Origin: a virus
IMG/VR virus record: IMGVR_UViG_3300046011_004995
Location: 1-32,777 of that record
Length of the DNA stretch: 32,777 bases
Direction: 5' to 3' (one strand)
The translations under genes were made by a program, and so were the position numbers. Shown here one piece after another: positions 11,687 through 32,762 of this stretch (its first letter is position 1; every line of letters begins with the position of its first letter). The notes under the pieces were generated by a model. That model had not been told where the DNA came from and searched no databases. It worked only from the letters and a program-made list of their open reading frames with translations.

Positions 11687-11750
11687 AAAAAAAACCCTCT
11701 TACACCCCCCCTCCCCTCTTTTATATAGGGTGCAGGGGTCATGTAAGGGG
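11687..11750 (-). terminator. Leftward terminator ending the small-gene array
   Basis: In minus-strand RNA, CCCCTTACA at 11742-11750 can pair with TGTAAGAGGG at 11695-11704 (one bulged A). Inner C-runs (CCCC, CCC) face a GGGGAGGGGGGG tract, and eight T follow at 11687-11694. The T-tract and long GC-rich arms support an intrinsic terminator between early/accessory and late transcription. Confidence 0.65.
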
Positions 11751-11927: not shown

Positions 11928-11957
11928 GTTATATCGGTGAGGGGAGGGGGGAGTCAA
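11928..11957 (-). promoter_or_regulatory. C-tract promoter P1
   Basis: -35 TTGACT at 11952-11957, 18-bp spacer beginning CCCCCCTCCCC, -10 TATAAC at 11928-11933. The ATG follows 18 nt after the -10. The upstream gene's TGA stop ends two bases before the -35. Confidence 0.85.
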
Positions 11958-12176: not shown

Positions 12177-12206
12177 CTTATATCGGCGGAGGGAGGGGGG
12201 TGTCAA
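12177..12206 (-). promoter_or_regulatory. C-tract promoter P2
   Basis: -35 TTGACA at 12201-12206, 18-bp spacer beginning CCCCCCTCCCTCC, -10 TATAAG at 12177-12182. The ATG is 16 nt after the -10. The upstream stop is five bases before the -35. Confidence 0.88.
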
Positions 12207-12401: not shown

Positions 12402-12431
12402 GTTATAAGGATTAGGCAGGGGGGGTGTCAA
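12402..12431 (-). promoter_or_regulatory. C-tract promoter P3
   Basis: -35 TTGACA at 12426-12431, 18-bp spacer starting with seven C then TGCC, -10 TATAAC at 12402-12407. The upstream gene is translated through the -35 and C-tract (LDTPPA) and stops at TAA 12412-12414, inside the spacer. Confidence 0.87.
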
Positions 12432-12622: not shown

Positions 12623-12652
12623 GTTATATCTGAGGGTGGAGGGGGGTGTCAA
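12623..12652 (-). promoter_or_regulatory. C-tract promoter P4
   Basis: -35 TTGACA at 12647-12652, 18-bp spacer beginning CCCCCCTCCACC, -10 TATAAC at 12623-12628. The TGA within TTGACA is the stop codon of the upstream 63-aa gene. Confidence 0.88.
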
Positions 12653-12856: not shown

Positions 12857-12886
12857 GTTATAAGTTTGGAGGGAGGGGGGTGTCAA
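12857..12886 (-). promoter_or_regulatory. C-tract promoter P5
   Basis: -35 TTGACA at 12881-12886, 18-bp spacer beginning CCCCCCTCCCTCC, -10 TATAAC at 12857-12862. The ATG is 16 nt downstream of the -10; the upstream stop is five bases before the -35. Confidence 0.88.
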
Positions 12887-13148: not shown

Positions 13149-13178
13149 GTTATAAGGTTAGGGGGAGGGGGGTGTCAA
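13149..13178 (-). promoter_or_regulatory. C-tract promoter P6
   Basis: -35 TTGACA at 13173-13178, 18-bp spacer beginning CCCCCCTCCCCC, -10 TATAAC at 13149-13154. The stop TGA of the upstream 95-aa gene is the TGA in TTGACA. Confidence 0.88.
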
Positions 13179-13479: not shown

Positions 13480-13509
13480 GTTTTAGGGTTAGAGGGAGGG
13501 GGGTGTCAA
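13480..13509 (-). promoter_or_regulatory. C-tract promoter P7
   Basis: -35 TTGACA at 13504-13509, 18-bp spacer beginning CCCCCCTCCCTC, -10 TAAAAC at 13480-13485. The upstream gene is translated through the -35 and C-tract (LTPPSL) and ends at TAA 13489-13491 in the spacer. Confidence 0.86.
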
Positions 13510-13695: not shown

Positions 13696-13725
13696 GTTAT
13701 CCAGATGGAGGGAGGGGGGTGTCAA
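13696..13725 (-). promoter_or_regulatory. C-tract promoter P8 (leaderless)
   Basis: -35 TTGACA at 13720-13725, 18-bp spacer beginning CCCCCCTCCCTCC, -10 GATAAC at 13696-13701. Only GACCTC separates the -10 from ATG, placing the predicted +1 on the A of the start codon. Confidence 0.86.
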
Positions 13726-13986: not shown

Positions 13987-14016
13987 GTTTTAAGGGCTGA
14001 GGGAGGGGGGTGTCAA
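13987..14016 (-). promoter_or_regulatory. C-tract promoter P9 (leaderless)
   Basis: -35 TTGACA at 14011-14016, 18-bp spacer beginning CCCCCCTCCCTC, -10 TAAAAC at 13987-13992. GAATTCC separates -10 and ATG (7 nt). Confidence 0.87.
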
Positions 14017-14509: not shown

Positions 14510-14539
14510 GTTTTAGGGTTGGAGGGAGGGGGGGGTCAA
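14510..14539 (-). promoter_or_regulatory. C-tract promoter P10
   Basis: -35 TTGACC at 14534-14539, 18-bp spacer beginning CCCCCCTCCCTCC, -10 TAAAAC at 14510-14515, then GAATTCCTCAACCCC in a 24-nt gap to the ATG. The upstream stop ends four bases before the -35. Confidence 0.86.
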
Positions 14540-14888: not shown

Positions 14889-14918
14889 CTTATGCCGATG
14901 GAGGGAGGGGGGTGTCAA
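14889..14918 (-). promoter_or_regulatory. C-tract promoter P11 (leaderless)
   Basis: -35 TTGACA at 14913-14918, 18-bp spacer beginning CCCCCCTCCCTCC, -10 CATAAG at 14889-14894; GACTCC then ATG. The upstream gene is translated through the whole promoter and its TAA stop (14890-14892) lies inside the -10 hexamer. Confidence 0.87.
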
Positions 14919-15404: not shown

Positions 15405-15434
15405 GTTATGCAGATTCAGTGGGGGGGGTGTCAA
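15405..15434 (-). promoter_or_regulatory. C-tract promoter P12
   Basis: -35 TTGACA at 15429-15434, 18-bp spacer beginning with eight C then ACTG, -10 CATAAC at 15405-15410. The upstream gene reads through (LDTPPTESA) and its TAA at 15406-15408 is inside the -10. A 34-nt leader region with GAATTCCTCAACCCCC follows. Confidence 0.84.
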
Positions 15435-15955: not shown

Positions 15956-15985
15956 GTTTTACTGAGGGAGGGAGGGGGGTGTCAA
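15956..15985 (-). promoter_or_regulatory. C-tract promoter P13
   Basis: -35 TTGACA at 15980-15985, 18-bp spacer beginning CCCCCCTCCCTCCC, -10 TAAAAC at 15956-15961, then GAATTCCTCAACCCC in a 31-nt gap to ATG. The upstream gene stops at the TGA of TTGACA. Confidence 0.87.
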
Positions 15986-16230: not shown

Positions 16231-16260
16231 GTTTTAAGGTTTAGGGGAGGGGGGTGTCAA
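16231..16260 (-). promoter_or_regulatory. C-tract promoter P14 (leaderless)
   Basis: -35 TTGACA at 16255-16260, 18-bp spacer beginning CCCCCCTCCCCT, -10 TAAAAC at 16231-16236, GATTCC then ATG. The upstream TAA ends one base before the -35 hexamer. Confidence 0.87.
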
Positions 16261-16591: not shown

Positions 16592-16816
16592 TCAATCTAA
16601 GGACTCAGGGTGGGGGGGGTCAAGTTCGACTTCAACAAGCCTTCCATCAACATTCTGACGGACAGTGAGGTTTTCTCCGTTGTTAACCTTGATTTCATTT
16701 TTAGTAATGAACTGCTTAATCCAAGCATTCATGTATTTATCCTGTGCTTCCTGTGCGGTTTCTGCTTCAATAGCAAATTCTACATAGAGCGTTTCAGTAA
16801 CAAGGTATTTAGGCAT
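16592..16816 (-). CDS. Unknown 74-aa protein with promoter-encoded tail
   Basis: MPKYLVTETLYVEFAIEAET then AQEAQDKYMNAWIKQFITK: a beta strand followed by the 'EAETAQEAQDKY' helix, a common design in tiny phage proteins of beta-alpha-beta-beta type. The end LDPPHPESLD is promoter P15 in translation, with the stop TGA at the edge of the -10. It is the third gene of the operon from promoter P16. The ATG at 16816 lies in an A-rich leader without a Shine-Dalgarno site. Confidence 0.76.
   Translation of the reverse strand: MPKYLVTETLYVEFAIEAETAQEAQDKYMNAWIKQFITKNEIKVNNGENLTVRQNVDGRLVEVELDPPHPESLD
16594..16623 (-). promoter_or_regulatory. C-tract promoter P15
   Basis: -35 TTGACC at 16618-16623, 18-bp spacer beginning CCCCCCACCC, -10 TAGATT at 16594-16599. 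This is the most divergent -10 of the array. The upstream gene runs through the whole promoter. Confidence 0.7.
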
Positions 16817-17279: not shown

Positions 17280-17309
17280 GTTTTAGGAATTGAGGGAGGG
17301 GGGTGTCAA
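17280..17309 (-). promoter_or_regulatory. C-tract promoter P16 (leaderless)
   Basis: -35 TTGACA at 17304-17309, 18-bp spacer beginning CCCCCCTCCCTC, -10 TAAAAC at 17280-17285, GATTCC then ATG. The -35 directly follows the CATCAAC arm of the structured element at 17310-17374. Confidence 0.87.
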
Positions 17310-17837: not shown

Positions 17838-17867
17838 TTTTTATTTGAGGTGGGAGGGGGGTGTCAA
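17838..17867 (-). promoter_or_regulatory. C-tract promoter P17 (leaderless)
   Basis: -35 TTGACA at 17862-17867, 18-bp spacer beginning CCCCCCTCCCACC, -10 TAAAAA at 17838-17843, then GAACTCC and ATG. The upstream stop ends three bases before the -35. Confidence 0.86.
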
Positions 17868-19651: not shown

Positions 19652-19864
19652 TTAAGCCTTTACGCTGTTAGCCAGCGACAGGACGGCGGCATCACGAACC
19701 TTTCGGTGTGAGCGGAACTGACGCTGATTGTTGGCGTTGGCGGGATAGCCAATCTTAGGGTCAACGCATAAAGCCTTGAGGGCTTCAAGTGCTTCTGCAT
19801 TGTCTTTAAGTTGCGGGTATGCAAGAAGATACTTCTCGACTCGGTTAATTTCTCTTTGGTTCAT
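19652..19864 (-). CDS. Unknown 70-aa basic protein
   Basis: MNQREINRVEKYLLAYPQLK begins a helical, basic protein that continues NAEALEALKALCVDPKIGYP and ends RSHRKVRDAAVLSLANSVKA. The spacing suggests two or three helices, possibly nucleic-acid binding. Its ATG overlaps the TGA of the 151-aa gene (ATGA), so translation is coupled. The tRNA cluster follows. Function unknown. Confidence 0.76.
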   Translation of the reverse strand: MNQREINRVEKYLLAYPQLKDNAEALEALKALCVDPKIGYPANANNQRQFRSHRKVRDAAVLSLANSVKA

Positions 19865-20316
19865 GGGATTTGGATAAAAATAGTGTTGTCCGCTTGGATG
19901 TAGCCTTTGAGCGGGTTTTCGATTTGGATGTAGTCTTTAATCTTGACGCTTACGCAATGCTCCTGCTTGGAAACAGGAATCATGTCGATGAACATGCCCA
20001 CAAACTCACGACCTACAGACTCAGGATTGTTTTCACAATCTTCGATACAAAACGCCATCTTGCAGTCAAGTGTTACTTGCGTAACAGGAAAGCGTGAATC
20101 GTCTATAATTATCGGGTTGGTGTTTGTGAGTTCGGTCACAAGCATAAGAGGCACAGCGTCTTGCTTGCCAAAACAACGCAGGATATGCTTTTTCATCGTG
20201 GCATTGATGCGGGTTTTGATTTGTCTGTCAGTAAGTTCGTTGCCGTTAAGGGTGTACACACACTTAAAAACAGCCTCCATCATGAGACACGCCCTGTCGG
20301 TTATATTGTTGGTCAT
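19861..20316 (-). CDS. Unknown 151-aa protein
   Basis: A soluble beta-rich protein with a helical start (ITDRACLMMEAVFKCVYTLN) and a long beta section (PVTQVTLDCKMAFCIEDCEN, then QEHCVSVKIKDYIQIENPLK). Six Cys residues are scattered with no clear metal site. The ATG at 20316 is 7 nt after the P20 -10, with GGAG directly before it that cannot serve as a normally spaced Shine-Dalgarno. No family recognised. Confidence 0.78.
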   Translation of the reverse strand: MTNNITDRACLMMEAVFKCVYTLNGNELTDRQIKTRINATMKKHILRCFGKQDAVPLMLVTELTNTNPIIIDDSRFPVTQVTLDCKMAFCIEDCENNPESVGREFVGMFIDMIPVSKQEHCVSVKIKDYIQIENPLKGYIQADNTIFIQIP

Positions 20317-20323
20317 CTCCGTT

Positions 20324-20353
20324 CTTATATAACAGGGGGGAGGGGGGTGTCAA
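20324..20353 (-). promoter_or_regulatory. C-tract promoter P20 (leaderless)
   Basis: -35 TTGACA at 20348-20353, 18-bp spacer beginning CCCCCCTCCCCCC, -10 TATAAG at 20324-20329; AACGGAG then ATG. RusA is translated through the whole promoter (LDTPLPPVI), with its TAA at 20325-20327 in the -10. Confidence 0.88.
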
Positions 20354-20837
20354 GAGGCATTCCAGTCCAAGGGTCTTTGTTCGCTTCAGTAATTATTACA
20401 TCAACAAACGGCCCCTTCCAGTGGAAGTACTTAGACACAGACAGGGATACCACATTAGAGTCATCGACTATGTAGTCGGAGTCGGTAAGAGCGTCCAGCA
20501 CAGACTTAACAAGGTTGTCACAGTCAGGGCGTGTAACCTTGGCTTCGATAATCATAATGCCGTGGTTCTTTCTCTTCTTGCCTTCATCTATGTGCTTCTT
20601 GAGCAATGGGTAACCAAAGTTAACAGTCACACGCAAAGAGCCACCAAGGGGGGTTTCGGGCTTCCACTTATTTAGTAAGAGCATAAACGCATGCTTCCAT
20701 TTAACGGCACTGCTCGTAGACATTTTGCCAACGAACATTTTACCGCTTTTTCGATTTTTTAGCACACGCAGTGCGGACTGGTGTGTGGGCGGCGGGTCTA
20801 TTGGGACTCTAATATTGACTATCTTGGGTACGCTCAT
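20325..20837 (-). CDS. rusA: RusA-type Holliday junction resolvase
   Basis: This 170-aa protein matches the RusA endodeoxyribonuclease family. RusA enzymes cut four-way DNA junctions as dimers, using Mg2+ held by acidic residues. The signature is clear: TRPDCDNLVKSVLDALTDSD with D105 and D107, then YIVDDSNV with D125/D126. The N-terminal strand (VNIRVPIDPPPTHQSAL) fits the fold. At 170 aa it is longer than E. coli RusA (120 aa). Its last nine residues, LDTPLPPVI, are promoter P20 in translation. It lies downstream of the 33-aa membrane peptide gene, overlapping it as ATGA. It would clear branched DNA before packaging. Confidence 0.93.
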   Translation of the reverse strand: MSVPKIVNIRVPIDPPPTHQSALRVLKNRKSGKMFVGKMSTSSAVKWKHAFMLLLNKWKPETPLGGSLRVTVNFGYPLLKKHIDEGKKRKNHGIMIIEAKVTRPDCDNLVKSVLDALTDSDYIVDDSNVVSLSVSKYFHWKGPFVDVIITEANKDPWTGMPLDTPLPPVI

Positions 20838-20935
20838 CGGCGTTGACCAGTTACTCCTTCAATGATTGTGGCAAAGACAGTGTACACTGCACATACAGCG
20901 ACTCCTAGAACGATAGTGGCAAAGGTGTTTTTCAT
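20834..20935 (-). CDS. Very small membrane peptide, 33 aa
   Basis: The ATG at 20935 is 8 nt after the P21 -10. The product MKNTFATIVLGVAVCAVYTV then FATIIEGVTGQRR is a single transmembrane helix with a basic C-terminus, so an inner-membrane peptide with the C-terminus inside is likely. Its stop overlaps the rusA start as ATGA. Such peptides often act on host membrane proteins or in lysis inhibition, but the role here is unknown. Confidence 0.68.
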   Translation of the reverse strand: MKNTFATIVLGVAVCAVYTVFATIIEGVTGQRR

Positions 20936-20943
20936 CAAGGTCG

Positions 20944-20972
20944 TTATACAGTTGACAGGGGGGGGGAGTCAA
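20944..20972 (-). promoter_or_regulatory. C-tract promoter P21, interlocked with rightward -35
   Basis: -35 TTGACT at 20967-20972, 17-bp spacer beginning with eight C, -10 TATAAC at 20944-20949. A rightward TTGACA (20953-20958) lies inside its spacer, forming the inverted arrangement TTGAC-A-G8-A-GTCAA. Confidence 0.82.
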
Positions 20973-20980
20973 GTACCATC
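20953..20980 (+). promoter_or_regulatory. Candidate rightward early promoter
   Basis: TTGACA at 20953-20958 is a perfect -35. The best -10 is TACCAT at 20974-20979 (15-bp spacer), leaving 7 nt to the ATG at 20987. The -10 and spacing are poor, so activation may be needed. Its -35 lies within P21, so both cannot be occupied at once. Confidence 0.4.
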
Positions 20981-20986
20981 AGTCCC

Positions 20987-21448
20987 ATGGAATATGAGCC
21001 CAAGAAGGAACTGATTAGAAACAACCAGCACCACAGCAACGCAAAGAACATTGAGCCTGAGCGTAGGAAGAAGTGTGAAGAGATGCTTTCGCAGGGCGTT
21101 ACAAGGGATGAGATAGTCAAGGCTACTGGCCTGTCTGAGCATAGCATATCCGCAATCAAGGGCGATATGACAGGTCTGTCTGATAAGGACTGGAAGACTA
21201 ATATGGCTAACATCATGAAGAACGCTGGCATGAAGGGTGCGAACAGACTTAATAATGAGATTGATAACATACATCCTAACTTCCTTCCGACTGCTCTTGG
21301 TATTATCATTGATAAAATTGCTGTGCTTCAAGACCAGCCTACCGCAGTAATCGAGCATCGCATCCAGAGGATTTCGCAAGACGATATCAATAAGATGCTT
21401 AAGAGCGAAGTTGTTATCGACATACAGTCTGACGAATCTGCCACTTGA
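20987..21448 (+). CDS. HTH DNA-binding protein, first rightward gene
   Basis: This 153-aa protein has an N-terminal helix-turn-helix: ERRKKCEEMLSQGVTRDEIV then KATGLSEHSISAIKGDM at residues 25-61. The C-terminal half is helical (NFLPTALGIIIDKIAVLQDQ, then AVIEHRIQRISQDDINKML). Proteins of this layout in phages are transcription regulators or terminase small subunits. As the first gene rightward from the interlocked promoters it may be the switch regulator, or a small terminase used late. Its stop is the TGA inside the -35 of promoter P22, the same nesting as on the other strand. Confidence 0.82.
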   Translation: MEYEPKKELIRNNQHHSNAKNIEPERRKKCEEMLSQGVTRDEIVKATGLSEHSISAIKGDMTGLSDKDWKTNMANIMKNAGMKGANRLNNEIDNIHPNFLPTALGIIIDKIAVLQDQPTAVIEHRIQRISQDDINKMLKSEVVIDIQSDESAT

Positions 21449-21474
21449 CACCCCCCTCCAGTTGTCGGTAGGGT
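21445..21474 (+). promoter_or_regulatory. C-tract promoter P22 (plus strand)
   Basis: -35 TTGACA at 21445-21450, 18-bp spacer beginning CCCCCCTCC, -10 TAGGGT at 21469-21474, 7 nt to ATG 21482. The TGA in TTGACA ends the HTH gene. The -10 is weak, suggesting activation or lower strength. Confidence 0.75.
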
Positions 21475-22933: not shown

Positions 22934-22963
22934 TTGCATCCCCCCTCCCTTGTCCGTTATAAG
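22934..22963 (+). promoter_or_regulatory. C-tract promoter P23 (plus strand)
   Basis: -35 TTGCAT at 22934-22939, 18-bp spacer beginning CCCCCCTCCC, -10 TATAAG at 22958-22963, 19 nt to ATG 22983. It restarts transcription just after the terminator. Confidence 0.82.
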
Positions 22964-23801: not shown

Positions 23802-24308
23802 ATGAAACGATTCCTTAGCCTATTCGCAACCTCCCTCTTCGGTATTTCCACTGAAGCCAAGACTATCGACATGACTGACTTCATGGATAGGCTTGCAATC
23901 ATTGAGTCTAATGGCAACTACAAGGCCGTTGGAGACAATGGAAAAGCCATCGGCATGTACCAAATGCATGAAGAGGCATATAAAGACGCACTTGCATATG
24001 TTCGCATCAAAGGAGATGGCATCCATGAACTTCTTCATGCCGCCAAGCGTGGCAAAGATTGGAAGAAAGACCTTGCTGACCCTGATTACGCTAGGTACTT
24101 TGCCGTAGCATATGTTCACATTATTGTTGATAGACTTATTAAAGACAAGCAAGAAGTCACTCCTCTCAAGATATACATGTGCTACAACATGGGATATCGT
24201 CAGGCTAAGTCCTACGGCTTTGACCCTAAGCACCAGTCGCTGACTTCTGCCAGAAGAGTAACGCTTAAGCGAGCCTCGATGGTACTTGCGTCCCCCCTCC
24301 CTCGATAA
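23802..24308 (+). CDS. Secreted lysozyme / transglycosylase-like endolysin
   Basis: This 168-aa protein has an N-terminal signal-like segment (MKRFLSLFATSLFGISTEA) with a likely cleavage after A19. The catalytic region is an SLT-like domain: IIESNGNYKAVGDNGKAIG with E35 as the likely catalytic acid, then MYQM. A helical remainder follows with YMCYNMGYRQAKSYGF. It would cleave peptidoglycan at lysis. The last residues (ASPLPR) are encoded by promoter P24. It begins directly after a terminator T-tract, with no Shine-Dalgarno site. The holin and candidate spanin are on the opposite strand. Signal-mediated export or SAR behaviour is inferred. Confidence 0.82.
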   Translation: MKRFLSLFATSLFGISTEAKTIDMTDFMDRLAIIESNGNYKAVGDNGKAIGMYQMHEEAYKDALAYVRIKGDGIHELLHAAKRGKDWKKDLADPDYARYFAVAYVHIIVDRLIKDKQEVTPLKIYMCYNMGYRQAKSYGFDPKHQSLTSARRVTLKRASMVLASPLPR

Positions 24309-24315
24309 GTATAAC
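24286..24315 (+). promoter_or_regulatory. C-tract promoter P24 (plus strand)
   Basis: -35 TTGCGT at 24286-24291, 18-bp spacer beginning CCCCCCTCCCTC, -10 TATAAC at 24310-24315, 18 nt to ATG 24334. The lysozyme gene is translated through it and stops at TAA 24306-24308 inside the spacer. Confidence 0.83.
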
Positions 24316-26551: not shown

Positions 26552-26825
26552 CAGGAACCTTCTTTACTGGACCAGACCAGAACTAAGAGAAGAAATCTAC
26601 AGGCTCAGAAAACTTAATATCATGGACACATCTAAAATCCTAACCGAAAAGAAACTTAATTCATCTGTCGTATCTGCTGGCCTGTGTATTGGAGTCCACC
26701 CTAGGGTGCTTGAATACTATCTGCCCATGTTACTTGACGCAACCAAAACCATAAATGAAGAAATCCAAACTCAAAGAAATAGAGAAAGCATTCTTAAGAG
26801 TGTCCTCCCTACAGAAAACGCCTGA
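26544..26825 (+). CDS. Small HTH-like protein, 93 aa (start uncertain)
   Basis: The start could be TTG 26544, overlapping the phosphoesterase stop by 8 nt, or ATG 26622 (67 aa). The N-terminal part would read LTDRNLLYWTRPELREEIYR. The conserved section, MDTSKILTEKKLNSSVVSAG then LCIGVHPRVLEYYLPMLL, is HTH-like. The C-terminus (TINEEIQTQRNRESILKSVL) resembles that of the 102-aa gene. A +1-frame gene begins inside its end, as in the first pair. Role unknown. Confidence 0.68.
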   Translation: MTDRNLLYWTRPELREEIYRLRKLNIMDTSKILTEKKLNSSVVSAGLCIGVHPRVLEYYLPMLLDATKTINEEIQTQRNRESILKSVLPTENA

Positions 26826-27018
26826 CGATGTTCCCGATTGTTGGTGGACTTCAGATGACTACATCAAGTTGCATGGCGTAAGCCAGTCAACAGCCAACAA
26901 ACACATCAAACTTCTTTTACAGAAGGGGCAGGTTCGCTCTCAGAAGTTCCTGATTGTTTGTCAAGACAAGGCTCTCCATCAAGTACCGCACTATCACTTG
27001 ACTGACAATAACGCCTAA
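26755..27018 (+). CDS. Winged-helix-like protein, 87 aa
   Basis: Encoded in the +1 frame relative to the end of the 93-aa gene. After a basic N-terminus (MKKSKLKEIEKAFLRVSSL), it has CWWTSDDYIKLHGVSQSTAN then KHIKLLLQKGQVRSQKFLIV, a typical winged-helix pattern (helix, turn, recognition helix, wing). It is likely a DNA-binding regulator and is the last rightward gene. It overlaps the leftward lipoprotein gene by 113 nt, tail to tail. Confidence 0.8.
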   Translation: MKKSKLKEIEKAFLRVSSLQKTPDDVPDCWWTSDDYIKLHGVSQSTANKHIKLLLQKGQVRSQKFLIVCQDKALHQVPHYHLTDNNA

Positions 27019-27691: not shown

Positions 27692-27990
27692 AGTTTGTTA
27701 ATGATTTTGTAGAATGTCTTTTCAAATATGTCTGGTGCAATAGCACCGCTGACAGAGAAAAGGATGGACTTATACAATGGGTCTATCTTGCTTCCATGCA
27801 AGGCAAAGTACATCAATACGCCTACGATTCCGCCAGCCACTATCTTCTTGACCCAAACAACGATAGGCTGACGCTCGTCAGTCAATATCATTCTGGCTAT
27901 CATACCCAAGGCTCCAAGCAAAGCGACTAGCCAGCCGCCAGACTTAAAGTCAGCGGCGGCTTTGCCAAGGTCTGGGTCGATAGGACTCAT
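27679..27990 (-). CDS. Holin candidate
   Basis: This 103-aa protein has three hydrophobic segments: about 18-36 (GGWLVALLGALGMIARMIL), 45-65 (WVKKIVAGGIVGVLMYFAL) and 72-90 (YKSILFSVSGAIAPDIF). A basic C-terminus follows (NKLWKK). This size and three-segment form fit class I-like holins, which open the inner membrane at lysis. Its neighbours are the large virion gene upstream (ATGA overlap) and the candidate spanin downstream (13-nt overlap). The endolysin is not here but on the plus strand. No antiholin start pair is visible. Confidence 0.75.
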   Translation of the reverse strand: MSPIDPDLGKAAADFKSGGWLVALLGALGMIARMILTDERQPIVVWVKKIVAGGIVGVLMYFALHGSKIDPLYKSILFSVSGAIAPDIFEKTFYKIINKLWKK

Positions 27991-30900
27991 CTTTTGAAGT
28001 GAGCCCTGAAGATATCATCGCAAGCCTGTTGTTCGTTGTCCGTCACAGAAACCAGTGCCTTGTTAGCACCATAGACTCTGAAGCGAGAAGGACCAGTCTG
28101 TTGGATTGTGTAGCCAAGAGCATTGACGAGTGTAACGCCAACACCCTCACCGCCGTTAGGAAGTTTAATCTTCGACATGTACTGGTTGAATCTGATTAGC
28201 GTATTCATAACCATCAACTGGTCGGAAGACGGAGTCCACATCGACTTTGTCGCTGTTTGCACAGGAGCAGAAGGAATGGAGTTAGGATAGCCAAGACCCA
28301 TAGCAGGAGGTCTAGGAACGACACCGCCAGAAGCGTTATTCAAGCCAGCATTGCTAGGCATGACAACAACCTGAGCAACACCAGAGGGGTTCGGAGCCCC
28401 AGAAGTGTTGTTGACTGTAGCCACATGAATTTCATTGGCTGTGGCAATCTGAGCCGCCATCACCTGATTGGCATGGAGGCAGTGCTGGATAATGTCTTCA
28501 ATCTTAGCATCTCTACCAAGGGCAGAGACAGCCGCAGTAACAAGTTCTTTAGCGTAAGGTCTAGGAATCCTAAGTTTGCTCAGGCCGACAACACAAGCAT
28601 TGAAGTTGGGGTGGGCTTCGGCAGGTGTCTTCGGGGAGGTAACAGGAGGAGTAGGCTGTTGAGCCTCAGCCTGAGCAACCTGCTTGGCAACCTGCTGAAT
28701 CTGAGCGGGAGCCATGACAGGAGCAGTAGCCTGAAGTGCGGCGGATGTATCAATACCCTGCATTTCTGCGAGTCTACGCTGAAGAGTATCAAACTCTCTG
28801 ATGCACAACTGTGCATGCTCAAGCGTAGGTACGATAGCAATCCTTCTCTGGTCGATAATCTGACCATGGTACGGACTCTGGTGAGGTTGCATGACAACTT
28901 CATACTTGCCAGCCTTGCCAGTAACCATGTATCTCTTGTCAGCAGTGGCAATCCTAGGATTACCAGCACCTCCGCTCATCTTGAGCGTAAGGTGGTCCTT
29001 GATAGACAAGATTGCAAGGGTGTGTTCTAGGTTTTCTCTAGAGACAGAGGCAATCGGGCCAGCCGCTTGAACGACAACCTGAGCCACGCCAACCTGTTCG
29101 ACTGGCTTGACTGTGCCGTTCTTGATTGTGGCCTCAATAATTTTCTTGACCTTTTCGGCAGTCGCCTCAGTCTTTTTGACTTCAACCTTGGTCGGCTTGA
29201 CAGGCTTGGCCTTCGTGGGAGTTCCGACAGGGGGCTTCTCTCTTCTAGGTCTGCCAGCAGGTCTGCGAGGGCCGATAGGCTTGTCATACTGATTTCCACC
29301 AACAGGGGTGTACCCAAGTTCGATAGGTCTCTGGGGGCCAATCGGTTTATCATAGGCAGGAGGAGGGTTGTACTCCAACTTAAGTGTGGGAGGCTTCTCA
29401 GGGCCAATAGGTCGGTCATACTGGTATGCCTGAGCCCCCATCGGGTCAGCCACAGGGGCATCATACCTAGAAAGAATGCTGTCAGTCGTTGCCTTCAGTT
29501 CCTCGGTAGTCATGTCAGGTCTAAAGTCCTGAGTAGGACCAATAGGACTTTCATACTGAAAAGGATTAGAGGTGTCTTTCTGGGGAACCTGATACTTATC
29601 AAGCAAGTCCTCAACCGACAGTTCACGGCGAGGCGTATCAATCGTCTGGGGCTTGCCTTCCGCTGGCCTCTGGGGGCCAATCGGTTCATGATACATATCT
29701 CCAGACACAGGCATCTGTGTGTGGTTGAACGCCAAATTACGCTTAAGTGCTTCCTTGCTGAAAGGAACGGAAGGCTTCTTTACAGTCATATCACCCTTAA
29801 ACTCCTTAGGGTATCTAATCATGTAGGTGTTGGCAGGAGTGCTGGCCTCAACCCAAGGCTCAAAGCCAAAGGATTCGTACCACTTCATCAACTTGGCTTG
29901 GTCCATCCTGCGACCACCTTCGGAATAGAAGGGGGAAACTTCAAGAGAAACATTGACCTCGTTTTTGTCAGCGACAGACAGGATATGCTCCATGACCATT
30001 CTGCCACCACCCTTACCTTCAAAGCCGTAGATAGCATCAATATACAGGGAAGCACCATCTCCCTCGCCCTGAAGACTGACTTGGAACGCACCAGCCTTAC
30101 GCTCTCCGTTCTCAATAACAGTTCTAATTCTTTCGTCAGGTCTTTCGGGGTGAACTTCACCAAGTTCAGCCAGCATAGAGATAGACTCCGTGACTCTTTC
30201 GCCAGACATAGGCATGACCTTAGGCTGGGCAGGAGTTTCAACAGGAGGAGTGTACTTAGCCTTTTCAGGCTTATTCTTCTTAGGCTGGGTAATGCCAAGA
30301 GCCTCATGCATTTCTGCTTCAGTTGTGGCCTTGTCTATTGCACCAATAAGTTTGGCAATAGGAGACGAGGGGGCAGGAGCATCTTCATTGACAGCCGCTT
30401 CAACGGCGTTAGTGCGAGCCTTGTCCTTGTCGCTGTAACTAGCCCTACGAGTTTCCTGATTTCTTTCCGCTAGGGTCTTCCAGTCCTTAAGAACCATGCC
30501 TCTTTCTTCCTGCATCTGTTCCGACTCGTCAAGGATGTACTTGTTCATTTCATCGTTCATGTACTCAATGAACTCGTATCTGATTTCTCCAGCAACAGCC
30601 TTAGCCTGTCTCTTTAGTTCAGCATCATCTCTTGGGGCTTCTCTTTCAAGGATAGGACCAAAGAAAGGTGCTTCCTTCTGGAAGTCCTTCCATGCTTCAC
30701 CAGAGGCAAGTTGAGAGGGCTTATATCCTCTTTCAATTTCAACAAGATGCTTGCCAGTAACTGGGTCTTTTTCGACATAACGATTTCGGGCTTTAACTTC
30801 ATCGTTCTTTTCTTTAAGTTTTTTGTAGTAGCGATACTCAACACTGTCAGCCTGACCATATACATGGTGTCTGCCTGTTCCTTGGTCAAAGAAGTTACCG

Positions 30901-32762
30901 ACAAAAGAAAGTTCTCCAGTACCTGCCTTGAAGGCTAGTTCGCTTCTGATTTTAGCCTCTGTCTTTTCCTTAAACGCTTTTCTCTGTTCGTCAGAAGGCA
31001 CTACGCCATTCTTTTTCTTGAAGTCTTTCTTGTAATCCTTCCATCTGCTATCAAGTTTTCTTGCTACAGCCGCTTCGTCTATCTTGCCAGAGGTATCCTC
31101 TGTAAGAAGGTCTTTGTTTTCAGGGAACTTTCTGAGATAATCACCAAGCCATCCCAAAATAATAGGATTCTCCTGCATGATGCCAACGGATTCCATGTTA
31201 GCGTCAATGGTAACGCCCTTCTCCTTGGCGAGAGCGACTTTATGTTCAAAATCTATAGTACCCTTTGAGTTCTTTTCAATATACTCAGCACCTTCTCTAA
31301 GCGAACTCAGGATTTCAATGGTAGACATGAACAGGTCAGGCTGATTCTGAAGTGCCTTTGTAAAACTAGCACTTCTGTCAAATCCAGAAATTAGAACTCC
31401 AGACTGTCTAAGCGTTTCTTCATAAACTTGCTTTCCAGAAAGACCTTCAAGGCCGCTGGTGGAAGCACCAGCCTTAAAATTAGGGTCAGTCAGGTGAGGG
31501 TTAATTTCCCAGCCCCAAAGCGAGTACAGACCAAAGACAGCCTGAAGGTGTTCAAACGGAGTGTTGAGTCTAGCACCTTCTCTAAGCCTTTGGAGTTTCT
31601 CATCCATTATTTTTATGACTTCGTTATACTCATCAGGGAATACGCTTACGGCATTCTTTCTAATTTCGTCCATTACCTCAGGAGGAATATCCTTAATCTT
31701 GACCTTTTTGTCTGGGACACCAGCGTATTTAAGGACAATTTCGTTTTCACCAGACTTCTTGCTGTCATGGATAGACGGAATCACACCCTCAATAATCATA
31801 GTATTACCATCAAGAGTCAGTTGTCTAAGGATAGAGTCACCCTTGTCGTTAAACCACTGCGAGTTTGCGTACTTATAATCTGCTAGATACTGGAGGGAGC
31901 CAGACTTAAGGTTTGTACCAAAGTTTTGGTTTCTAGCCTTGGTAGCATCATAAGTTCCAGCCGCAACTTCCTTTTGAATGGCAACAAGAGCATCGTTGAT
32001 TCTGATACGCTTCTGAAGTTCAGAGTCAAACTCTTCCTTGTCCCAGATTCGCATACCTTCCTTGTCGTAAGACTCTTCGTTCTCAGCCTTCATCAGAGTT
32101 TCAATCTGCTCAGGGCTCATCGGTTCATACTTAACAACATCCTCAGCCTTGACATTTCCTTCTTCATCAGCAAAGCCAAACACTTCAGCAGAGTTTCTTC
32201 TATGCTTTGCGGCTCTTCTCTCTGCAAGAGCAATGGCATCTTCTTTTGTGATAGCCTCGATTTCATTTGGGTCGTAGTCTTCTTCTTTAAGACCAAAGGC
32301 TTCTTCGATGTTAGCCTCCTTGGCTTCATGTTCTTCATATCGTCTGATGGTTTCAAGATGAACTTCATCATCAAACTCAGGGTGCGGGTAGCCTTCATCT
32401 TCAGCCGTAAGACCTTCGGCTTCAGCCGCTTCATTCTCCCTGTGGTACTCAGCCATAACCTTGTCCTTAATTTTTTCCATCTTGCGGGTACGCTCGTCCT
32501 TCTCTTTTCTAGCGGCCTCAAGTTTAGCCATGGTCTTGTCGTAGTTCTTGTCGATTGCCTTGAAGATACTATTGACCTTTTCTCCCCCAACAGAGCGGAG
32601 ATATTGAATCGCCTTATCCATGTATCTCTTTCTGTAGATTCTCCTAGTTCTTTCCCTTACTGTTTCGTTAGCGTAAACAGATGCTTCTAGCATTTTGTCA
32701 CCTTCTGCTTCAAACTTTGCCTGTTCATCGGCAATCTGTCTAGCAAGTTCAATCGCCTTCAT
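27987..32762 (-). CDS. Very large virion-associated protein with GNAT domain
   Basis: This 1591-aa protein begins at ATG 32762 (AAGGA seven bases upstream); codons before it stay open to the edge, so it may be longer. Residues 1-300 are highly charged and helical. Around 860-985 is a GNAT acetyltransferase-like domain with GFEGKGGGRMVMEHILSVAD and KWYESFGFEPW. Residues 1022-1165 hold five Y-x-x-PIGP repeats (YDKPIGPQRP and variants) in Pro-rich DNA. The C-terminus has LSKLRIPRPYAKELVTAAVS, resembling the RuvA C-terminal three-helix domain. Size and late position suggest an ejected internal virion protein; acetylation of a host target after injection is a hypothesis. Confidence 0.85.
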   Translation of the reverse strand: MKAIELARQIADEQAKFEAEGDKMLEASVYANETVRERTRRIYRKRYMDKAIQYLRSVGGEKVNSIFKAIDKNYDKTMAKLEAARKEKDERTRKMEKIKDKVMAEYHRENEAAEAEGLTAEDEGYPHPEFDDEVHLETIRRYEEHEAKEANIEEAFGLKEEDYDPNEIEAITKEDAIALAERRAAKHRRNSAEVFGFADEEGNVKAEDVVKYEPMSPEQIETLMKAENEESYDKEGMRIWDKEEFDSELQKRIRINDALVAIQKEVAAGTYDATKARNQNFGTNLKSGSLQYLADYKYANSQWFNDKGDSILRQLTLDGNTMIIEGVIPSIHDSKKSGENEIVLKYAGVPDKKVKIKDIPPEVMDEIRKNAVSVFPDEYNEVIKIMDEKLQRLREGARLNTPFEHLQAVFGLYSLWGWEINPHLTDPNFKAGASTSGLEGLSGKQVYEETLRQSGVLISGFDRSASFTKALQNQPDLFMSTIEILSSLREGAEYIEKNSKGTIDFEHKVALAKEKGVTIDANMESVGIMQENPIILGWLGDYLRKFPENKDLLTEDTSGKIDEAAVARKLDSRWKDYKKDFKKKNGVVPSDEQRKAFKEKTEAKIRSELAFKAGTGELSFVGNFFDQGTGRHHVYGQADSVEYRYYKKLKEKNDEVKARNRYVEKDPVTGKHLVEIERGYKPSQLASGEAWKDFQKEAPFFGPILEREAPRDDAELKRQAKAVAGEIRYEFIEYMNDEMNKYILDESEQMQEERGMVLKDWKTLAERNQETRRASYSDKDKARTNAVEAAVNEDAPAPSSPIAKLIGAIDKATTEAEMHEALGITQPKKNKPEKAKYTPPVETPAQPKVMPMSGERVTESISMLAELGEVHPERPDERIRTVIENGERKAGAFQVSLQGEGDGASLYIDAIYGFEGKGGGRMVMEHILSVADKNEVNVSLEVSPFYSEGGRRMDQAKLMKWYESFGFEPWVEASTPANTYMIRYPKEFKGDMTVKKPSVPFSKEALKRNLAFNHTQMPVSGDMYHEPIGPQRPAEGKPQTIDTPRRELSVEDLLDKYQVPQKDTSNPFQYESPIGPTQDFRPDMTTEELKATTDSILSRYDAPVADPMGAQAYQYDRPIGPEKPPTLKLEYNPPPAYDKPIGPQRPIELGYTPVGGNQYDKPIGPRRPAGRPRREKPPVGTPTKAKPVKPTKVEVKKTEATAEKVKKIIEATIKNGTVKPVEQVGVAQVVVQAAGPIASVSRENLEHTLAILSIKDHLTLKMSGGAGNPRIATADKRYMVTGKAGKYEVVMQPHQSPYHGQIIDQRRIAIVPTLEHAQLCIREFDTLQRRLAEMQGIDTSAALQATAPVMAPAQIQQVAKQVAQAEAQQPTPPVTSPKTPAEAHPNFNACVVGLSKLRIPRPYAKELVTAAVSALGRDAKIEDIIQHCLHANQVMAAQIATANEIHVATVNNTSGAPNPSGVAQVVVMPSNAGLNNASGGVVPRPPAMGLGYPNSIPSAPVQTATKSMWTPSSDQLMVMNTLIRFNQYMSKIKLPNGGEGVGVTLVNALGYTIQQTGPSRFRVYGANKALVSVTDNEQQACDDIFRAHFKR

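Follow-up and report, generated by a model that had tools for sequence, protein, structure and literature searches.

A family of C-tract promoter-like elements and an interlocked divergent site in a viral genome record

In the virus record IMGVR_UViG_3300046011_004995, the leftward promoter of an interlocked divergent pair belongs to a genome-wide family; this is its most important property and was missed by an earlier note on the same DNA. In the window, i.e. the entire analysed stretch of 32,777 nucleotides, the family comprises 24 promoter-like elements including those with degenerate -35s, 21 of them leftward (20972 to 11957) and three rightward (21445, 22934 and 24286). The left promoter of the pair is one of these 24 elements. 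The right one is probably a different, leaderless promoter of the sigma-70 type, whose -35 falls within the spacer of the left one. The site is best explained as the point from which a tailed phage controls its early genes in both directions, and the unusual C-rich middle of the elements appears to be recognized by a regulatory factor.

The GenBank phage collection contained no match to the window DNA or to its HTH protein; for TerL four of its records matched, at best with 33% identity. The sole hint at the host is a distant relative (31%) on a single contig of a Verrucomicrobia MAG. A partial literature search revealed no description of such a regulon or of leaderless overlapping divergent promoters. 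The HTH gene has its nearest relatives on environmental phage contigs; the available relatives are few, nested and mostly incomplete contigs, and counts across them (loci L, records G) are not independent. The window also encodes a giant protein (27987-32762, - strand) of 1591 aa, which reaches 3691 aa in G013 (L068:1280-12352) and gave no Pfam match above the cut-off.

Geometry and conservation of the interlocked site

Direct reading and a script revealed the string TTGAC-A-G9-A-GTCAA at 20952-20972, in which each -35 falls within the spacer of the opposite promoter. The site and its adjacent genes are composed of the following features:

20325..20837, - strand: RusA-like Holliday junction resolvase gene, partner in the divergent hub
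20834..20935, - strand: first gene to the left, a hydrophobic ORF of 33 aa that is conserved in L001-L004; L035 has a similar 33-aa ORF
20943..20948, - strand: leftward -10 TATAAC, behind an 18-nt spacer and 7 nt before the ATG (20935-20933)
20949..20966, - strand: leftward 18-nt spacer CCCCCCCCCTGTCAACTG, with the C9 tract at 20958-20966
20952..20957, + strand: rightward -35 TTGACA, starting 35 nt 5' of the HTH ATG
20967..20972, - strand: leftward -35 TTGACT, read at 20972-20967
20974..20979, + strand: rightward -10 TACCAT, behind a 16-nt spacer and 7 nt before the ATG (20987-20989)
20987..21448, + strand: first gene to the right, encoding the HTH protein of 153 aa

The interlocked divergent -35s described in the earlier note are real and recur in L001-L004. 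The left -35 (20967-20972) was correctly placed there, the right -35 is shifted by one base from the proposed 20953-20958, and the run between both -35s consists of nine G (20958-20966) instead of eight. Overlapping promoters are generally known to exclude simultaneous polymerase binding; because of the geometry of the two promoters, the same may soundly be inferred for the interlocked site, in line with the earlier view that two polymerases could hardly occupy both promoters together. Only one of the 24 family elements contains GTCAA inside its spacer, namely the one at the divergent gene pair; a simple simulation gave a chance of 1.7% for one family element with GTCAA in the spacer. A simple promoter scan listed the right promoter (10/12 matches) and missed the left one because it demands a T at the end of the -10. 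The right -10 of the window is weak (TACCAT), though its final T is present.

The interlock is kept in five of the six C-tract records covering the site (window, L001, L002, L003 and L004). The gap between the -35s measures 11 nt in the window, L001, L002 and L003 and 13 nt in L004, where both -35s are present; in L035 the right -35 is missing and the interlock absent. The previous notion of a strong left and a poor right promoter could not be maintained, as TATAAC lacks the final T like 22 of the 24 family members, and the right -10s of L002, L003 and L004 (CACAAT, CACAAT and TAGAAT) are no worse than the left ones (TAAAGT, TAAAGT and TAGTAT); the asymmetry is not conserved. Considering all loci, 17 of 25 have TTGAC at positions -34 to -38 relative to the HTH start codon (exactly 35 nt in the window); the eight loci without it are L035, L006, L037, L038, L044, L045, L052 and L055. 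In the distant L047-L056 group, only 35 bp separate the divergent start codons of RusA and HTH, and the TTGAC of one gene is joined directly to the ATG of the opposite one (CCATTGAC...GTCAATGG; left in 10/10 loci, right in 8/10), the promoters being wholly superimposed. The divergent RusA/HTH pair is present in all 18 loci showing both genes, and the modules flanking it are swapped relative to the window in L006, L007, L013, L037, L038, L044 and L045. As the interlock, the superimposed promoters and the gene pair are kept across loci, we consider the overlapping divergent hub to be old and its exact form to vary. As a separate observation, the RusA/HTH pair (20325-21448) is inverted relative to the replication/accessory modules between the C-tract clade and the L006/L007/L038-type phages.

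The C-tract family and its variation among phages

The elements are built of TTGAC-N, a C-rich tract of about 10 nt, a fixed 18-nt spacer and a TAWAAC-like -10, followed by a start codon 6-34 nt further. Their positions, together with that of a terminator-like structure, are:

11692..11750, - strand: terminator-like hairpin with a T run (eight T), 3' of the last leftward-array gene
11928..11957, - strand: C-tract promoter element
12177..12206, - strand: C-tract promoter element
12402..12431, - strand: C-tract promoter element
12623..12652, - strand: C-tract promoter element
12857..12886, - strand: C-tract promoter element
13149..13178, - strand: C-tract promoter element
13480..13509, - strand: C-tract promoter element
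13696..13725, - strand: C-tract promoter element
13987..14016, - strand: C-tract promoter element
14510..14539, - strand: C-tract promoter element
14889..14918, - strand: C-tract promoter element
15405..15434, - strand: C-tract promoter element
15956..15985, - strand: C-tract promoter element
16231..16260, - strand: C-tract promoter element
16594..16623, - strand: C-tract promoter element, -10 TAGATT
17280..17309, - strand: C-tract promoter element
17838..17867, - strand: C-tract promoter element, -10 TAAAAA
18371..18400, - strand: C-tract promoter element, -10 TAAAAA
19236..19265, - strand: C-tract promoter element
20324..20353, - strand: C-tract promoter element
20943..20972, - strand: C-tract promoter element of the interlocked site
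21445..21474, + strand: C-tract promoter element 5' of the O-like replication gene
22934..22963, + strand: C-tract promoter element 5' of the ERF gene, -35 TTGCAT
24286..24315, + strand: C-tract promoter element 5' of the exonuclease gene, -35 TTGCGT

Each of the 24 elements precedes a gene in its own direction with a start codon at most 45 nt away, the distance between the -10 and the start codon being 6-9 nt in 11 and 16-34 nt in 13 of them. TTGAC, the core of a sigma-70-type -35, is present in 22 elements; the -10 is characterized by an AT-rich TAWAA core with a final T in only two. Searching for TTGACNCCCCC with at most one mismatch yielded 23 matches compared to a shuffle mean of 1.75, and none of 100 shuffles reached 23. 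The tract was recovered in 17 of 18 window matches selected by the hexamers only (TTGAC-18-TA[TA]A[AT]), for which 18 nt is the sole spacing with more than two matches. Conversely, all 19 matches selected by the tract only (C6TCC) are preceded by TTG[AC] and followed 18 nt on by an AT-rich -10-like hexamer, which is poor in one case (TAGGGT). The information content amounts to 8.8 bits for the -35, 16.4 bits for spacer nt 1-10 and 6.7 bits for the -10, the tract value being inflated by prefiltering of the sites for C content. The elements at 22934 and 24286 carry a perfect tract despite their -35s TTGCAT and TTGCGT.

The segment 11640-11770 spanning the strong terminator-like hairpin has a fold z-score of -2.55, and a related C-tract/G-tract hairpin was observed at the equivalent place in L110 and L091. 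Further leftward, a TTGACT without C tract is located at -34 of the ATG of a portal-like gene (8507, - strand) and perhaps belongs to a separate leaderless promoter for packaging/portal genes. Shine-Dalgarno-like motifs were found for one of 50 window genes compared to about 12% at random places, in a test region that stops 3 nt short of the ATG and misses a GGAG abutting the gene at 20316. Given their scarcity, the host probably initiates translation without such motifs. Bacterial leaderless genes with a -10 adjoining the start codon are known (PMC3160421, PMC12340547); the elements resemble them in the -10 placed about 6-9 nt before the ATG in 11/24 cases, and the window in its paucity of Shine-Dalgarno-like signals. 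They deviate from the leaderless -10 of Deinococcus, in which the T at the sixth base is nearly invariant (PMC12340547); this T is absent in 22 of the 24 elements.

Among relatives, the tract occurs in different flavours. It reads ACCCCCCTCCC in the window, L001 and G007, mostly ACCCCCCC in G002 and G003, some G003 sites being identical to those of the window, CACCCCACCCC in L004, L005 and L091, and YACYACCCCC in G008, the record of L035. The exact base order differs even between phages that are 76-90% related in their HTH protein, and C-richness is retained. Over 11 nt, the mean tract distance is 1.31 within a record versus 3.39 between orthologous promoters of different flavour (81 elements, 8 records; the 59 orthologous pairs are related by descent and not independent); label shuffles gave a mean of 2.81 and never fell below 2.33 in 2000 trials. 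At the sequence level, the tract is thus shown to be uniform within a phage and to change in concert between relatives. The flanks of the elements are near random, which argues against long conversion tracts and hence against gene conversion as the origin of the repeats. A role in R-loop or G-quadruplex formation, considered solely from the sequence, was set aside as well, since the tract is located 5' of the start and does not offer four G3 runs.

In G008, a start codon is nearby for 21 of 23 tract matches and TTGAC is retained in only 7 of these 21. The information content is 17.3 bits for the tract, 6.5 bits for the -35 hexamer and 5.5 bits for the -10; the tract bits are inflated as the tract was the selection criterion, which leaves the loss of the -35 core unaffected. 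This loss, together with TTGCAT and TTGCGT in the window, favours a tract that aids recognition over one that serves as a plain blocking site. By the same filter, C-tract elements are absent from G009, G012, G013, G014 and locus L006. G013 (L066-L068) and G014 (L069-L070) bear another repeated promoter before accessory genes, TTGAC-N17-GATACTGTTCACC with a CTGCAC-like spacer, which reads TTGAC-N17-GATACT and thus has the canonical final T; five and three sites, respectively, were counted by eye, leaving out single dissimilar matches in each.

Proposed mechanism and candidate factors

The concerted change of the tract and its outlasting of the -35 point to a trans-acting factor that reads the spacer, an activator being likelier than only a repressor. 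In this scenario, the C-rich tract just past the -35 would be the main recognition element of the leftward family, and an early DNA-binding factor of the phage or, less likely, of the host would bind to it and assist RNA polymerase at the promoters of the leftward array and of the three rightward replication genes. Since the tract of the interlocked site sits in the right spacer, binding of the factor would shut the HTH promoter and might thereby accomplish a one-way handover from a first (HTH) to a second (array) transcription. Overall, we regard this model of array and interlock handover as evenly poised between right and wrong; the HTH recognition helix changes only slightly between flavours, no protein is tied to the tract, the right -35 is missing in L035 and the right -10 of the window is weak, all of which speak against it. 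Taken in full, the proposal is more tentative and leans towards the doubtful: most early genes would possess their own leaderless or short-leader promoter, a phage factor whose specificity changes from one phage to the next and which can stand in for the -35 would read the C-rich spacer, and the RusA/HTH hub would hand over between programmes.

The first rightward gene, designated as an HTH protein in the earlier note, indeed produced HTH matches, albeit only weak and generic ones against known families. Its recognition helix (window, EHSISAIKGD; L003 and L004, EHSISAIKAD; L035, TQSISAIKQD) is near-identical across C-tract flavours and deviates in those relatives that lack the tract, a pattern which fits a binder of C-rich DNA but is confounded with descent. 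The structural model is of middling confidence (pLDDT 68.5, pTM 0.33) and gave no strong fold match. The top Foldseek matches include a small terminase (E 0.29), the terminase small subunit family matched weakly in 2 of 12 HTH members, and in L030 the HTH relative sits two genes 5' of TerL; later scans of the HTH protein provided generic HTH matches only and no terminase family. By its position the HTH protein is a candidate for the tract factor, a guess that we consider unlikely to be correct.

Two further genes are confined to C-tract phages. An 87-aa winged-HTH-like gene (26755-27018) was rejected as flavour determinant, since its L004 copy is 87% identical and has the same HTH despite another tract flavour. 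The 151-aa protein (19861-20316) is an unlikely tract factor judging from its model (pLDDT 73.6), which is of the alpha/beta type, displays no evident DNA-binding fold and had no match with E <= 0.001 in the PDB. No Pfam match to MotA, AsiA or a like sigma co-activator was detected among the proteins scanned, and none to phage integrase (PF00589) or the HTH_3 repressor (PF01381) in 10 records, several of them incomplete.

Alternative explanations and implications

By analogy, the arrangement most resembles T4 middle promoters or the operators/stoperators of cluster A mycobacteriophages. T4 middle promoters combine a phage element, the MotA box near -30, with a sigma-70 -10 and operate by sigma appropriation (PMC2988021). 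Likewise, a repeated phage-specific element near -30 and a -10 are found here before many genes, and the -35 appears dispensable in the G008 elements. In contrast to T4, most elements retain TTGAC with the tract just downstream of the -35, and no MotA/AsiA match emerged among the scanned proteins.

The stoperator analogy leads to an alternative in which the tract is the operator through which a phage repressor shuts down every early promoter simultaneously, the interlocked left one included, and also blocks the right promoter. The L5 repressor of cluster A phages acts on over 20 asymmetric sites, which point in the direction of transcription and are similar but not identical between genomes (PMC9283540, PMC6550527); the 21 leftward and three rightward sites with their genome-specific flavours match this description. 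A repressor would likewise produce the concerted tract change, as would a host factor. However, all 24 sites are embedded in promoters at fixed spacing, whereas most stoperators would be expected outside promoters, and neither a repressor nor an integrase was found in the 10 records, several being incomplete. Moreover, the predominant loss of the -35 core in G008 with maintenance of the tract (TTGAC in 7/21) would be odd for mere sigma-70 blocking, and we judge this alternative improbable.

Ordinary overlapping divergent early promoters served by the host polymerase alone, the C tract exerting a cis effect (DNA shape or polymerase preference) with neither phage factor nor switch, likewise offer an explanation. 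TTGAC plus an AT-rich -10 in nearly all window elements and the C-richness retained despite varying base order are compatible with it. Its probability nevertheless appears low, as the tract order is uniform within a phage and different between phages that are 76-90% related in their HTH protein, five relatives (G009, G012, G013, G014 and L006) lack such elements by the same filter, and the other repeated promoter of G013/G014 carries the canonical final T.

In the overlapping divergent promoters PR and PRM of lambda, two polymerases compete for one DNA stretch. Polymerases presumably compete for shared DNA at the interlocked site as well; here, unlike in lambda, at least one of the two starts is leaderless and one of the promoters belongs to a genome-wide array. 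The switch proposed in the earlier note, a dominant leftward transcription and an HTH protein that later tips the balance rightward, would profit from the mutually exclusive geometry and from the RusA/HTH divergent pair in 18/18 loci. It is nonetheless very improbable, as the difference in strength is not conserved in L002-L004, the HTH protein is also retained in relatives without the interlock and provides only weak generic HTH matches, and integrase and HTH_3 matches are missing in the 10, partly incomplete records. Finally, TTGAC-N11-GTCAA as a dyad operator for an HTH dimer instead of two -35 elements is hardly conceivable despite perfect 5-bp arms and the gap of 11 in the window, L001, L002 and L003, because the gap is 13 in L004, the right arm is missing in L035, and the L007 group has no dyad, whereas TTGAC persists at -34 to -38 of the ATG.

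If the tract were merely a plain cis feature, the finding would reduce to an ordinary overlapping divergent promoter. If, as we prefer, a phage factor reads the tract, a recognition element would have changed in concert at dozens of sites across related phages and, in one lineage, outlived the -35. These phages would then allow a direct study of the joint change of a regulator and all of its sites, with the interlocked hub as the natural place to observe one event that switches one direction on and the other off.
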